Assembly: GCA_004195635.1 (NCBI GenBank)
Contig: PSPT01000004.1
Location: 21,080 to 85,079, forward strand
Reading direction: 5' to 3'
From: Methanobacteriota archaeon
Lineage (GTDB): Archaea > Thermoplasmatota > Poseidoniia > Poseidoniales > Poseidoniaceae
Length of the DNA stretch: 64,000 nucleotides
The position numbers and the translations under genes were made by a program. This document shows positions 7,351 to 31,312 of this stretch, one piece after another. Below the pieces are notes generated by a model that saw nothing but the letters and a program-made list of their open reading frames with translations, did not search any database and had not been told where the DNA came from. How positions within the stretch are numbered: position 1 is the stretch's first letter; each line of letters starts with the position of its first letter.

Positions 7351-10300
7351 CTATTCTTCTTGAGAGTAATGCAAGTTTTCATATTCCCTTTCGGATTCAG
7401 ATGAAATGCCAATATTTGCTGAGAAGTTTCGACTCCTAATTAAGATAAATACGGCAAGGCTGAGGAAGAGGACAATAATGGACAAAGTTGAGTATAATAA
7501 TGCAGCATTTTCCCCTTGGATTGGATCTGCTTGGATTTCAAAATTAATCAATTGTGAGTCATTATATCCTTCAATAATGATAGTAAATTCATAATCTCCA
7601 TCCCTCCATGATTCAACTGATAATATAAGATATTCACTCTCCAAGGAATTTAGATTTGCTGATATTTCATCCATCACGACCTCTCCTTCAAGAAGTTGAA
7701 GTGTGACTTTGCCGTCATAATATCCAAAATTGTGAAGGGTGGCATTTACAGTAAGCATATCCCCCACATGACTTGGATTACTGGCTGATATTTCTATGAG
7801 GCGTGGTACAAATTGATAAATTAATAACTTAGGCTTTTGCTTACTATTATTACTTCCAGTACCAATCAACTCATTGCCGGCAATATCGGTTGCCGAAATC
7901 CAGACAAAAAGGTTATACTCCTCGCTTAAGTCAATATCATTTGGTAATGAAATATTCAATACAACATCATAATACCAAATTCCATCTGCATGGGTGAGTA
8001 AATTACAAATTGCTATTCCCATCCCTTCTATTTCTTCATATTCAGCTCCTGTTATTTGCCAATTTATCTTGACATCTGAATTCATCTGCTGAGGTTCATT
8101 TATTTGAAATGTAAGAGGGATCATTTGCATTTGGTCTGTACGAATACTTTGGAGTGATGCTAGAGGGAGAGATAGGCGTGGGCTCTCATCATCAAGTATC
8201 ACCTCTCGCTGAATGTGTGAAATTTGAAATCCAGAATAATTGATTTCACCTATTACATTCAATTCGGCTTGAGCATTTAGGAAGATTGAACCATTGAATA
8301 TTATTTGCATCAGTACCGGTTGGGCATTTGCGTGGTAATAATACTGCATTGATTGGTCAATAATTCCACCATCCACATTTATCATTATTTCCATATCAAT
8401 ATTTATGGGAATATTTGTGCCCTGATAAACCGGTATTACTGTTAATTCAACTATATCATCATCAGAGATATGCAATACTTCCCCATATACGCCCCCATAA
8501 GGCTCTGTAGTATCGATTAGAGAAATTTCAATTAGTTCAATTTCATTTAAATAATTCCATTCAAGAGGAGTTAAATGACCCGTACCAAGACCTACTTCTT
8601 GACCTAAATCAATTACAGATAAACTAGGAACCCATGTCTGATTTGCTAGTGCCCCACTAGAACTCCAAGGGATTACAAATGAAAACTCCACTTCCCACCT
8701 ATCATGTTGTCCCGGTTGAGTGATTGGTTGAAAGGTAACTTCTACTTGTGAAAAACAGTCTTGATCAGCATTGATGCGTTCATCCCAAGGTTGCCAAGAT
8801 ATACTACAATTTGTACCATCAATATCACCGGTGAGGTCTAACAAGATTTCATCGAGACTTTGCAAACCGTTTTCCTCTTCAATAATTAGACCAAAAGTGT
8901 GCACTTGCCCAGGTAATATCTTACCATCTCTCAAGTCTAAAGTCAAATCAGTCCAGGAAAGTAAAGTTGGAGTATCAGGCATTACTACTATTGTAGCCAA
9001 ATCATTACCAAGTCCAAAAGAACCTCCAAATCCGTCTGTTTGCCATTCTGTATTTCCTTCAATGGGGATAGGGTTGCCTGCAAGATCAGATCCGGTTATG
9101 TACAAACTGATTAGACCAGATGAATCATTTTCTCCGAGTGCATCATTAGATACTAATAGAGGGAAATCAACAGTTTGCCGCACTGAAGCCTTGGATAATT
9201 GGGCAATGATTGTGCGATACTCCGATTCCTCTGCGATGCTGTTTTCATTAATATCATCTATTTCTTGCATCCAATAGTGTAATTCAAGGCTATCGTTTGA
9301 GCGAACCGATTCTATCACTTCTATTGATAGAGGCAAGGTCCTGTTTTGATACCAAATATGATTATCAGCAGGTTGTTGCCCACCGGGTGGACTGACCATC
9401 AATAATCCAAGTGAAGGGGCTTCGGAATCCCAGATAACATCAACCCACTCGGTCAATGTTCGGTCAATAGCGCCACCTAATGCTGCATCACCAATCGGAA
9501 TTACACTTGAGCGTATGCCAATTCTTTGGCCAGAACTCAAAATGCTATTATCTGCATTGGGTAGTTCAATCAGCCCAGTCCAATCACCAGTATTTGTAAC
9601 AGAAAAGGAATAATTATTTTTCCAATAGGCTGGGTTTTCGGTATAGGTTGTGATGTTAGTTGAAGTATTTGTTATTGGGATATACTCGTCCTCATAATTC
9701 TCTAGTTCAACTAAAATATTTGCATTTGGTGCGCCAATTCCAAGATTAGGTGAACCCGCAAAGCGGACAAAACCTGAAACTTGAATTGAAGAATTTGCCA
9801 TTACTGGCAAGGGGTAATCGGGATTCCCTACATCACTTAGGAGTTGGTTTTTCTCTAGCAACAGAACTTGAAATTGAGTTGACTCCATATCGATTTCCAT
9901 TGCAGGACCGGTTGAGCCTCCAGCCCTAACTACAGTTGGACCCAATGGGGTATCCGGAGGTTCTGTAGTTTCCGTCATCCACCAAAGGTTATCTTGGTGA
10001 CCATGTTTCCACTGCGGGATAAACTCCCAACCTATTTTATAATGGCTTTTTAATGATGCACCAGAAGGGTACTGGATAGTTGTGCCGTTTAGCATTAATA
10101 GGTCCGAACCGGCTAATTGTTCGACCAAAGGCGGTGTATGAGAAGTGTTGATGCTAATAATTATTTCAGCAAGACTTAGGTTTCTTGTTGTGCTAACATA
10201 AAGGTTGATGTTTTCAAAAGAAGAATTCGAAAACATATGTTGATGCTCGGTCCAAATTGTATAAGATTGTCCTGTTGGAAACAAAGTTTCAGGTTGAGAA

Positions 10301-27408: not shown

Positions 27409-29283
27409 TTAATTCTTAGAAACTACCATCCAACCGATAAGGCCAACAACTACTGCTGCTATTGCTCCAACTCCAATAATGCCTCCTGGAATCATAGCCA
27501 TAACACCCTCGGTTTTATCTTCAATATCGTCCGAAGAACCATCGTTATTGTCATTGTTACTCGTATTTGAATTGCCTAAATCAATTTGACAAGAACCATC
27601 ATCTTCGGTTGCTTCTGCATTGAAATTAGATGCGGTTGAGTCCATACAACCCAACAATGCTTCAGGCTCTGGTGCAGGGTAAGTACAACTGTTATCATCT
27701 TCGGTGGCTTGTGCATTGTAATTTGTTGCAGTTGAATTCACACATCCCAATACCGGCACATTTGGATAAATGCAAGAACTATCATCAATTGTAGCATCGG
27801 CATTGAAATTTGTTGCAGTTGAATCCATGCATCCCTCAACGCTTTGGCTAGCAGCGATAGCGGCCATCATTTGGTCAACACTGTTTTCATTAGGGCCGAA
27901 AGAGCCATTGGTTGCTACCCACGCAAAGGAAAGCCCTTCTTCCACATTTATTGAAGACACTCCTAACATTGAACTCTCCCATGCATTTGTTGTGGTATTA
28001 GTTGTATAGAGGGCCCAATACCAGAAATCAGCATCTCCCCAAGATGCTGCTGAAACTAATCCACCGATTGATACTAAGTAGACTCCATACGTTTCAATAG
28101 AATAATCATATTCATGGCCCAATAATGCGAACCCCATTTCAGATGCATTCCAAGCATTGGCTGAATCAATAACTGAAAAATTGGAAAATTGCGATGTACC
28201 GTCTGGCATGTAAATCATCATGCTGACAGAAACATTATCATCTCCTCCATTATTATTATTCTCATTATCTATTATCATTTGATCTACACTAGAACCGTCA
28301 AATGGACCCCATGAGCCATTTGTTGCAACCCAAGCAAAACTGTCTTGACTACTGGCATTTACAAATGACACACCATCTATTGAAGGAGCCCAAGAACCAT
28401 CTGAAATATCCAACAAGTAAAGACTCCAAAACCAATAATTTTCTTCACCAGATGGTACCTCACTCATCATACCCGCTATTGAATATAGAAGTACTCCGAG
28501 TTCAGGGTCTTCATCAAAGCCATATTCTAATTCAAGTTTTTCAAAACCAATTAGTGAAGCATCCCAAAGTGTTCCATTTGAAGTCATGTTAATCGTTGTT
28601 GCTCTCTGAGTACCATCGGGCATGTATACCATCATTCTCATGTCTTGAGGGCCATTTCCTCCATTCCCGCCTGTGCCATTTGTATTATTTTCGTCTCCGC
28701 CGCCGGTAGAATTATTCCCGTCACTTCCGGTACCTCCACCATTAGGGTCAATGACATGGATAACGCCAGTCATGCTTGTGTGGTAATTGCATTGATAATC
28801 ATAAGTCCCAGGTGTCTGAAGAGAAACACTGAAAGTACCCCCTTGATTGATATTGCCGGAATCAAATGTTTCCGGCCCAGTACCCATATCAGTAACTGTG
28901 TGGGAGTTTGAGTCAACATTTGTCCATTCAACTGAATCCCCCATATTAATAGTAAGATTATTTGGAGTGAATGTATTGGAGATTTCTACTGGATGAGTTG
29001 TTGCGCCTCCTCCGCCACCGCCTCCGGCAGATGCTGTAGAAATGATTGGTGCGGTTACTGAAATAAGCATCATTATGGCAAAGAAAGTCATTATTCCACG
29101 CTGGGTTCGAGATGGCTCTTGAGAGGTCATGGGTTTCATTGGTGTGTGGTACAGTACTTCAATAATTTGGCGCGTTAATCTAGTATCATCAATCACAAAT
29201 ATGATTCGGTGCAGGAAATGTGAAGGAAAGCCCCCTGTAATACTATATACTCGCCAAAAAGTGCAGTTAATATCATGCGACAT
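27409..29283 (-). CDS. Membrane-anchored surface protein: cupredoxin + two DUF4430-like modules + three Cys-rich repeats + C-terminal TM
   Basis: Type-1 copper pattern (SNSHTVTD ... YDYQCNYHTSMTGVIHV). Two modules begin MMVYMPDGTQ / MMIYMPDGTS. Three GCMDSTATNFNADATIDDSSCIYP-like repeats; terminal TM. True start likely MKPMTSQEP near 29137. Confidence 0.8.
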   Translation of the reverse strand: MSHDINCTFWRVYSITGGFPSHFLHRIIFVIDDTRLTRQIIEVLYHTPMKPMTSQEPSRTQRGIMTFFAIMMLISVTAPIISTASAGGGGGGGATTHPVEISNTFTPNNLTINMGDSVEWTNVDSNSHTVTDMGTGPETFDSGNINQGGTFSVSLQTPGTYDYQCNYHTSMTGVIHVIDPNGGGTGSDGNNSTGGGDENNTNGTGGNGGNGPQDMRMMVYMPDGTQRATTINMTSNGTLWDASLIGFEKLELEYGFDEDPELGVLLYSIAGMMSEVPSGEENYWFWSLYLLDISDGSWAPSIDGVSFVNASSQDSFAWVATNGSWGPFDGSSVDQMIIDNENNNNGGDDNVSVSMMIYMPDGTSQFSNFSVIDSANAWNASEMGFALLGHEYDYSIETYGVYLVSIGGLVSAASWGDADFWYWALYTTNTTTNAWESSMLGVSSINVEEGLSFAWVATNGSFGPNENSVDQMMAAIAASQSVEGCMDSTATNFNADATIDDSSCIYPNVPVLGCVNSTATNYNAQATEDDNSCTYPAPEPEALLGCMDSTASNFNAEATEDDGSCQIDLGNSNTSNNDNNDGSSDDIEDKTEGVMAMIPGGIIGVGAIAAVVVGLIGWMVVSKN

Positions 29284-29862
29284 AGAGCACTCTCATTCTG
29301 CCTATTGGCGACGTTGGTATTGCTATTCTCAATTATGCCGGTTTCGGGGTCTGTGGCTGGAGTCAATTTAGATGCTGACACTGAAGGGACACCTGTAGAT
29401 TCGATTGTGCGAGATAATATTTCATTTGATTTTAAGGTATGGAATGTCTCAGTTTCATTGACTGAAGATGCTATTGGCAATAATACATCCGTTGCTATTT
29501 CAACCCAAATATGTGTTAATTCCGGATTTTGCCACACCCCTGCTACTATGACTCTTGAAGAAATAGCAAATGGAACATATTCTGGTTCAGTAACTCCAAT
29601 GGATGATCACACCTATATTAATTGGCGAATTATCTTATCTTATGAGGACAACACAACTGAAAGACTGCCCGCCTCCGGATGGTCAAAAATTTGGTCTGAT
29701 TGTTGGCTAGATTTACATTCAGAACCTCCTCTTTGGGGAGGTAATGGTTGCCCTGAAGAAGTTGATGATGAAGGCTTTCTGCCCTCAATTGGTGTATTGG
29801 GTACAACTGCTACTTTGATGCTTGCTGGTGCAACTTACATTAATAGAAAGAATAAAGATTGA
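29275..29862 (+). CDS. Secreted/membrane protein of unknown function
   Basis: Signal peptide MRHRALSFCLLATLVLLFSIMPVSGSVAG, four extracytoplasmic Cys, C-terminal TM. Confidence 0.65.
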   Translation: MRHRALSFCLLATLVLLFSIMPVSGSVAGVNLDADTEGTPVDSIVRDNISFDFKVWNVSVSLTEDAIGNNTSVAISTQICVNSGFCHTPATMTLEEIANGTYSGSVTPMDDHTYINWRIILSYEDNTTERLPASGWSKIWSDCWLDLHSEPPLWGGNGCPEEVDDEGFLPSIGVLGTTATLMLAGATYINRKNKD

Positions 29863-29894: not shown

Positions 29895-30335
29895 TCACAA
29901 GCGCTTTTGGTGTTCATTAATTCGTGACAGAAGTCGCCGCACATCAACACCCCAACTAGTAAAAATTACACTTGCTGAAGAATTATTTTTGCTTAATTTT
30001 CCGGCTTGCATTCCGGGAGACATTAGGTCTGAAGGGACGAGTGGTAAGTTTACACAAGCGAGGGTTGCTTGAACTCCATCGGCTACAACATCCAGTTTCA
30101 GCCATTTTTCACATTTGCCAATATTATCCTTAACCTCAATATTTGCCTTCTCACTTTTCAGAAATCTTACGAGTGCTTGGAATAAGTCTTGTGGGTCATC
30201 AGTTGAAGCCGAAGGAGGTAAGCCCGAAAGGGCTTTTTCGTCAGCAGAACCGTAAGCAGAAAGGAAGGGCAAATCGGTGTCATGGGCATCAAGAAAGTCA
30301 TCAAGACCACGCCCCAAACCCCGTTTTGCCGCCAT
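29895..30335 (-). CDS. Small protein with N-terminal ParB-like ParA-interaction peptide and unknown C-terminal domain
   Basis: N-terminus MAAKRGLGRGLDDFL resembles ParB/Spo0J N-termini (for example RRGLGRGL..LL). Starts 14 nt after the parA stop, same strand. Confidence 0.75.
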   Translation of the reverse strand: MAAKRGLGRGLDDFLDAHDTDLPFLSAYGSADEKALSGLPPSASTDDPQDLFQALVRFLKSEKANIEVKDNIGKCEKWLKLDVVADGVQATLACVNLPLVPSDLMSPGMQAGKLSKNNSSASVIFTSWGVDVRRLLSRINEHQKRL

Positions 30336-30349
30336 TCACATCTCTCCTG

Positions 30350-31312
30350 TTACCTATTTGCTAAGCCCCAACGTAATGCAAGATTTTCAGCCAAACTACG
30401 ATAATCATTTCCACCATGACTTTCTGGTGCATGTAAGTGAATAGGAATGCCGTGGCTTGGGGCTTCTGCAATACGGATATTTCTCCTAATTGGGGGCTCA
30501 ATTACCAAACCAGCAAAGGTTTCCTTCAATTGACCTGCAACTTGACCATTAAGTAGGGTTGGGGCATGCATTGTCATTAGAATAGCATCAACACCTAAGC
30601 GCGGATTGAGGCGGGTTCTGATTTCTCGGATTGTCCCTGCTAACAAAGCAACTCCCTCTAAAGCAAAATATTCGGTTTGAACTGGGATAATTACTGCATC
30701 GGCCGCACATAGGGCATTTATTGTCACAATTCCAAGACTTGGCGGAGTGTCAATTAGTACAATGTCATAATGCGGTAATAGTGCTTCCAATCCTTCTGTA
30801 AGGCGACGTTCTCGCCCTAATTCGCTCATTAATTCTTGCTCGAGCCCTACCAATGTCCGGCCTCCCACTACCAAATGCAAACCATCAATATTTGTTGCAT
30901 ATCGGCATGAGCCGGCTAATTCGGGATTGAGCATGAGGTTACGGGAAGTAAATTCTACCTTTGATTTATCTATTCCCAAACCAGTTGCACAATTTCCTTG
31001 GGCATCACAGTCAACTACCAATACTCGAAGGCCAAGGGTAGCCAAATGTGCTGCTACATTGATGACAGTAGTTGTTTTTCCAACTCCGCCTTTTTGATTA
31101 ATACAAACAACAACTCTAGCCAAACCAGGTCTGGTAGGGGGTGCAGGGGGTAATTTCATTACATTACGTGGCCTAGATATCGAAATTTCCTCCGCCGCAG
31201 AAGGCGCTTGCCTTACATCGGAAAATGAAGGTTCAATGACTTCAATTTCATCTTCCGAGACTTCAATTATTTGCCCAATAGCCTGCGCAACCTCTTCATC
31301 ATTCACGTACAT
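30350..31312 (-). CDS. parA: ParA/Soj family chromosome-partitioning ATPase
   Basis: Deviant Walker A CINQKGGVGKTTTVINVAAHLA, DCDAQGNCATGLG, DTPPSLGIVTINAL, IPVQTEYFALEG. Confidence 0.93.
   Translation of the reverse strand: MYVNDEEVAQAIGQIIEVSEDEIEVIEPSFSDVRQAPSAAEEISISRPRNVMKLPPAPPTRPGLARVVVCINQKGGVGKTTTVINVAAHLATLGLRVLVVDCDAQGNCATGLGIDKSKVEFTSRNLMLNPELAGSCRYATNIDGLHLVVGGRTLVGLEQELMSELGRERRLTEGLEALLPHYDIVLIDTPPSLGIVTINALCAADAVIIPVQTEYFALEGVALLAGTIREIRTRLNPRLGVDAILMTMHAPTLLNGQVAGQLKETFAGLVIEPPIRRNIRIAEAPSHGIPIHLHAPESHGGNDYRSLAENLALRWGLANR

Follow-up and report, generated by a model that had tools for sequence, protein, structure and literature searches.

A small Poseidoniales protein with a putative ParB-type ParA-binding tail on a predicted novel fold, encoded beside a Soj-type ParA

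The window is the whole 64,000-nucleotide stretch analysed here, and the genome that carries it is incomplete (1.75 Mb, 80% complete). On its minus strand, the gene of a SAP-domain transmembrane (SAP-TM) protein is followed by parA and then by the gene of a small protein, termed P0001 (Table 1). The coordinates and sequence first given for parA and for the 146-aa ORF, which starts with MAAKRGLGRGLDDFL, proved correct. The parA stop and the P0001 start are 14 nt apart, a Shine-Dalgarno-like AGGAGAG precedes the latter, and the two genes frequently overlap by a few bases in relatives. The convergent protein of about 195 aa, which has no family assignment, recurs downstream of P0001 in family f1 and genus g18.

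Table 1. Features of the parA–P0001 locus and of related loci
Feature	Position	Strand	Basis
P0001, putative small adaptor protein, 146 aa	29895..30335	-	ORF; homologs in 113/194 order genomes
ParA (P0002), Soj-type, 320 aa, ~60-aa N-terminal extension	30350..31312	-	Pfam AAA_31 6e-53
SAP domain + single-TM + large beta-rich domain protein, 759 aa	31385..33664	-	Pfam SAP 4e-8
ParA deviant Walker A KGGVGKTT, residues 74-81	31070..31093	-	Translation
P0001 codons 1-15, ParB-type ParA-binding tail (putative) MAAKRGLGRGLDDFL	30291..30335	-	M. xanthus ParB spacing
P0001 codons 17-29, second conserved N-terminal motif AHDTDLPFLSAYG	30249..30287	-	Alignment
P0001 codons 45-146, predicted novel alpha/beta domain	29898..30203	-	AlphaFold2, Foldseek
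Convergent ~195-aa secreted/membrane protein	29275..29862	+	Neighbourhood tables; context only
SegB-like partner overlapping Thermoplasmatales ParA	L200:2772-3047, L201:4396-4668, L213-L219		

The ParA of this locus (ParA1) has Thermus Soj as its closest solved structure (1wcv, E 1e-54; also 8ray), and its deviant Walker A motif, a feature of the ParABS ATPase, is intact. Close orthologs (E <1e-80) were found only in Poseidoniales, the other Thermoplasmatota ParAs being about 35-45% identical, and the Poseidoniales ParAs form one supported clade with respect to three outgroup rows (99/98). Within the order, close matches to ParA1 are distributed over genera g1, g6, g7, and g9 of family f1 and every genus of family f2.

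The original prediction placed a ParB-type ParA-binding N-terminus on a domain of no recognisable kind, and residue spacing together with ortholog conservation bears out the predicted tail. ParB of M. xanthus contacts ParA via L11, R13, L15, L18, and I19, and a serine in place of any of the hydrophobic ones strongly impairs binding (PMC12462528). L7, R9, L11, F14, and L15 of P0001 have the same spacing, matching the four hydrophobic residues and the one basic residue of this contact set (PMC12462528). In a genome-wide motif search, P0001 was the sole ORF with GLGRGL at its N-terminus, which argues against a chance occurrence; two other DNA matches fall in short frames of 27 aa and 77 aa, near the C-terminal end in the latter. 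L[GAS]RGL is present in 35 of the 38 ParA-linked orthologs of the genome-contig set, including one XARGL that stems from an assembly N. In the second motif, L22, F24, L25, and Y28 are invariant with and without ParA1. Residues 1-40 have low pLDDT in the AlphaFold2 model, with a short helix at 12-18. P0001 possesses a short disordered basic N-terminal peptide of the ParA/MinD-activator type, for which ParA binding is predicted.

On the side of the ATPase, the pocket positions L150, L152, L155, and L192 (M. xanthus numbers) are mostly hydrophobic in Poseidoniales, while V116 is replaced by polar or acidic residues and L187 by E or Q (E in Thermus as well). E117 is kept in 24 of 36 ParAs that have tail-bearing P0001 partners. 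The arginine-binding site is not conserved in any Poseidoniales ParA, Y81 being R or K and D110 varying, so this site must differ from that of M. xanthus, while the main groove looks usable. The unconserved arginine site is a real weakness of the analogy with M. xanthus ParB.

The remaining part of P0001 is predicted to be a novel alpha/beta fold, neither ParB/Srx nor HTH. In the AlphaFold2 model (79 homologs), pLDDT is mostly >90 over residues 45-146, which comprise a helix (48-61), strands (66-93), a short helix (101-105), further strands (109-125), and a C-terminal helix (130-145). As anticipated for the ~110 aa beyond the tail, no ParB/Srx or HTH fold was seen in the model by Foldseek and no ParB_N or HTH by Pfam, and no family was assigned by PHROGs, NCBIfam, or Pfam at cut-off; the model likewise has no RHH domain. 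Foldseek returned no PDB match below E 0.001. The best one, weak, was to the double-wing domain of T4 MotA, with E 0.011 and a TM by target of 0.45-0.48; type III secretion chaperones came next with almost equal scores, and YjbR ranked further down. The C-terminal double-wing domain of MotA, YjbR/DUF419, and the chaperones share the alternation of helix and antiparallel strands with P0001 but differ in Foldseek E (0.01-0.3), in TM (<0.5), and in showing no sequence relation. A search of a viral structure library gave one match <1e-3 with poor TM. Two further hits were set aside as chance: Pfam HpHbR (E 0.0014, below cut-off, single member) and a PDB sequence match of the P0001 profile to influenza PB2 (E 0.6).

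The MotA likeness is what would favour a role in chromosome segregation, with a MotA-like double-wing domain binding DNA as a substitute for ParB. This is quite improbable, given that the chaperones score almost as well as the weak MotA match, that the part after the tail is acidic (mean net charge -5 over 79 homologs), and that an EamA transporter replaces the domain in sister genera; DNA binding by the domain was rejected on the weak fold hint and the acidity. Nor does the genomic setting speak for segregation: no match to the bacterial parS 16-mer at <=2 mismatches, a consensus that a diverged site could escape, was found in the genome of the window (G000), and proximity to oriC was rejected because the orc1/cdc6 genes are not near the locus. 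Of three other genomes, two have one isolated parS-like site each.

That the locus is a canonical ParABS system whose ParB has diverged is far less credible still and can be regarded as highly improbable. The appeal of this reading lies in the likeness to the bacterial system, which covers an L-x-R-x-L-x-x-[LF]-L N-terminal tail beside a Soj-type ParA and the overlapping or nearly overlapping gene order. However, P0001 has neither the CTPase (ParB/Srx) domain nor the HTH, the locus lacks the parS-like sites and the orc1/cdc6 proximity just discussed, and the tail is attached here either to an alpha/beta domain of 100 aa or to a transporter. ParB_N (PF02195) is above cut-off in six of 194 order genomes. 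The four such loci that were read (L080-L083) encode short proteins of the DGHH[RK] type that have no ParB tail and were rejected as a canonical, Spo0J-type ParB encoded elsewhere; they are likely stand-alone ParB/SerK-like enzymes.

P0001 was detected only in Poseidoniales, with no profile match outside the order among 390 phylum genomes. It co-occurs with ParA1 in 34 genomes, and the genes are adjacent on the same strand in 34/34, as established by comparing the coordinates of both homolog searches by eye; the conserved linkage to parA across Poseidoniales is in this way confirmed. The position next to a cognate ATPase, a feature of activators, is therefore present in all 34, but P0001 also occurs without ParA1 in six genera (g2, g3, g4, g5, g8, and g10). 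In the f1 genera g3, g4, g5, g8, and g10, the SAP-TM gene is directly followed by P0001, while in g2 the SAP-TM gene itself has in many cases relocated. At two g2 loci (L054:4941-7097 and L045:5399-7369), a pair of predicted secreted proteins is found upstream of P0001 in place of the SAP-TM protein.

The tail varies with ParA1 to some extent. In alignment A2, L7 is present in 34 of 37 ParA-linked P0001s versus none of 42 in the large ParA-less clade, which has likewise lost the basic residues before L7 while retaining R9, L11, D12, L14, Q17, L22, F24, L25, and Y28. Most P0001s without ParA1 have lost L7 and kept RGLDHLMEQN. GLGRGL, whose conservation in orthologs had been named as a check, is thus kept in ParA-linked orthologs and absent from the ParA-less clade. 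The trees reduce this co-variation to a single clear concordant event alongside two to three that are discordant, so the L7 counts are not independent and are not used as main evidence. For instance, g10 has lost ParA while its P0001 keeps KKKLSKGFDDL, and the L057/L058/L135 group and L052 have kept ParA while their P0001 has lost L7. By these sequences, the link between tail and ParA1 is loose, either one being kept without the other in several lineages.

The conservation of the C-terminal domain and of the second N-terminal half in the six ParA1-less genera indicates that part of P0001 function is independent of ParA1. The view of P0001 as a minimal archaeal ParA regulator accordingly holds for the tail, the novel domain, and the parA linkage, but not for the core, which is kept in those genera as well. 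Taken further, P0001 could be an order-specific protein that works without ParA altogether, its N-terminus resembling ParB by descent or chance and ParA being a mere operon neighbour; the persistence of P0001 in the six genera, with the C-terminal domain and R9, L11, L14, L22, F24, L25, and Y28 invariant or nearly so with or without ParA1, fits such a role. It is nonetheless improbable, since L7 and its preceding basic residues are almost restricted to P0001s that occur with ParA1 and since selection acts on the same tail where an unrelated transporter carries it next to the same ParA.

This transporter occurs in seven f2 genera (g11, g12, g13, g15, g17, g19, and g20), where the gene directly after ParA encodes an EamA transporter (PF00892; those bearing the peptide match at E 1e-23 to 1e-26) and P0001 was not found. 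Many of these transporters begin with GLGRGL and have DLSxF as the second motif. The tail reads LGR[GN]L, mostly GLGRGL, at L061:4057-5022 and at L059, L060, L065, L066, L068, L069 (VLGRNL), L070, L072, L075, and L078. In a class-wide search, the alignment starts at residues 1-4 for 44 EamA loci (counted from the table) and at about residue 24 for most others. For EamA homologs from the sister family f3 (42-48% identity), it begins only at about residue 28-32; the tail was therefore acquired. Synonymous sites are saturated in the selection analysis of the tail-bearing EamA transporters, so the contrast in pN is its usable part: GLGRGL has a pN of 0.10 and DLSxF one of 0.19, compared with 0.30 in the transporter body and 0.60 over the six codons that follow GLGRGL. 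GLGRGL on the EamA transporter is under strong purifying selection, and this contrast provides the strongest evidence for regarding the tail as a functional module linked to ParA1. The EamA-partnered ParAs form one group (92/57, weakly supported), and ParA is kept with a tail-less EamA in g11, g17, and most of the sampled g12; the ParA tree is consistent with a single swap to EamA, after which the tail was lost at least twice. The presence of the same tail on P0001 and EamA suggests that archaea re-use it to link ParA to different cargoes. Searches of the literature for ParA in Marine Group II, or for EamA with a ParA tail, found nothing.

Among archaea, SegAB is the main known example of ParA-type positioning. 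A SegAB-like pair also exists in the present genome, as a second ParA with the motif KGGCAKT (ParA2; L079:6370-7347) lies just upstream of the window on the same contig and is followed by an RHH-like ORF of 75-82 aa (7489-7737), its RHH class being assigned by eye with no Pfam match above cut-off. ParA2 is also found in P0001-bearing genera, and in the P0001-bearing genomes sampled, the RHH-like ORF is 75-90 aa long, lies 26-141 nt downstream of ParA2, and has no tail. Among the genomes of P0001 genera, 49 of 52 have this ORF, versus 0 of 32 among those of EamA genera, the profile of g21 being confirmed through L206. P0001 and this ORF share one genus profile, from which P0001 possibly serves ParA2 too; with the EamA genera falling into one group, a single co-loss may account for this profile. 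In Thermoplasmatales, a KGGC ParA homologous to ParA2 is overlapped by a ~90-aa RHH-/SegB-like partner starting with KKRGLDSLISQN, and its N-terminus MADIKKRGLDSLISQN is close to RGLDHLMEQN of the ParA1-less P0001s.

Accordingly, the core partner of P0001 might be the KGGC-type ParA2 with its RHH-like protein encoded elsewhere, the LGRGLD form of the tail serving ParA1 and the reduced RGLDxL[MI]xQN form serving ParA2. This alternative is unlikely: the closeness of the Thermoplasmatales N-terminus to the motif of ParA1-less P0001s, the absence of a tail on the Poseidoniales RHH-like ORF, and the shared profile speak for it, while P0001 is not linked to ParA2, the profile may be one co-loss, the RHH class was assigned by eye, and ParA-linked P0001s mostly keep L7 and adjoin ParA1. 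As in SegAB, the gene of a ParA-family ATPase is followed immediately by that of a small partner, and the SegB-like partner of Thermoplasmatales has a related reduced tail; in contrast, P0001 lacks an RHH domain, and ParA1 belongs to the Soj-like and not to the KGGC type. A broader scheme, rather unlikely as a whole, would have the tail moved between adaptors and two ATPases, namely, the novel domain with ParA1, EamA with ParA1, and a reduced form for the SegA-like ParA2 after ParA1 loss, with ParA positioning or gating the 10-TM EamA transporter on the nucleoid in the sister lineage.

The upstream SAP-TM protein is more universal in the order than ParA1 or P0001, occurring in every one of the 21 genera and in 180 of the 194 genomes. 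Its SAP domain is predicted to be cytoplasmic and is accompanied by a disordered acidic linker containing EAE[VI] repeats, a TM at about 188-208, and an outside beta-rich domain of ~550 aa, for which no usable fold match was obtained (best TM <0.25). It is the best candidate for a third component. Many f2 ParA N-terminal extensions carry PLIIDVEFxEEE, which resembles these EAE[VI] repeats.

P0001 is probably a cargo adaptor and ATPase-activating partner of the Soj-type ParA. We infer an envelope-linked cargo from the SAP-TM protein as a constant neighbour and from EamA as the alternative tail carrier in the sister lineage. ATP-bound ParA dimers would sit non-specifically on the chromosome, and the disordered N-terminal tail of P0001 would bind the dimer interface, tethering ParA, and would accelerate ATP hydrolysis and release. 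The cargo would be held by the C-terminal alpha/beta domain and would be an envelope-linked assembly, most simply the SAP-TM protein.

ParA/MinD activators are considered modular, with a peptide that can be grafted onto any interaction domain (PMC7993993). By analogy, P0001 is best read as a modular ParA-binding adaptor like PomX, TlpT, and McdB rather than ParB. As in these proteins and MinE, its N-terminus is a short, positively charged stretch attached to an unrelated cargo domain (PMC7993993, PMC10241942), but P0001 is archaeal, its domain is order-specific, its tail is ParB-like in sequence, and one ParA lineage has two partner folds in situ. These abundant, uncultured marine archaea would have a bacterial-type ParA whose ParB was replaced, only the ParA-binding tail being recognisable, on a new fold or a transporter. 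The peptide-grafting idea (PMC7993993) becomes testable at a single gene locus, and the natural domain swaps and ParA losses allow one to ask which tail residues matter, whether one tail serves two ATPases, and whether ParA positions envelope proteins.

Swapping of the tail may be common throughout the phylum, since in other Thermoplasmatota, too, ParA is followed by non-ParB proteins whose tails read L-G-[KR]-G-[LM]-K-[DE]-L. These proteins include partners of 350-450 aa with tails such as MGKPALGKGMKDLL, one of them with a weak TPR match, and further ones with tails such as LALGRGLKELLP. The 350-450-aa partners at L191:3912-5150, L192, L193, L194, and L199 start with ALGKGMKDLL or similar, and shorter ones at L195 and L196 start with LALG[KR]GLKELLP. 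In this L191-L196/L199 group, the upstream gene resembles that of a glutamine amidotransferase.
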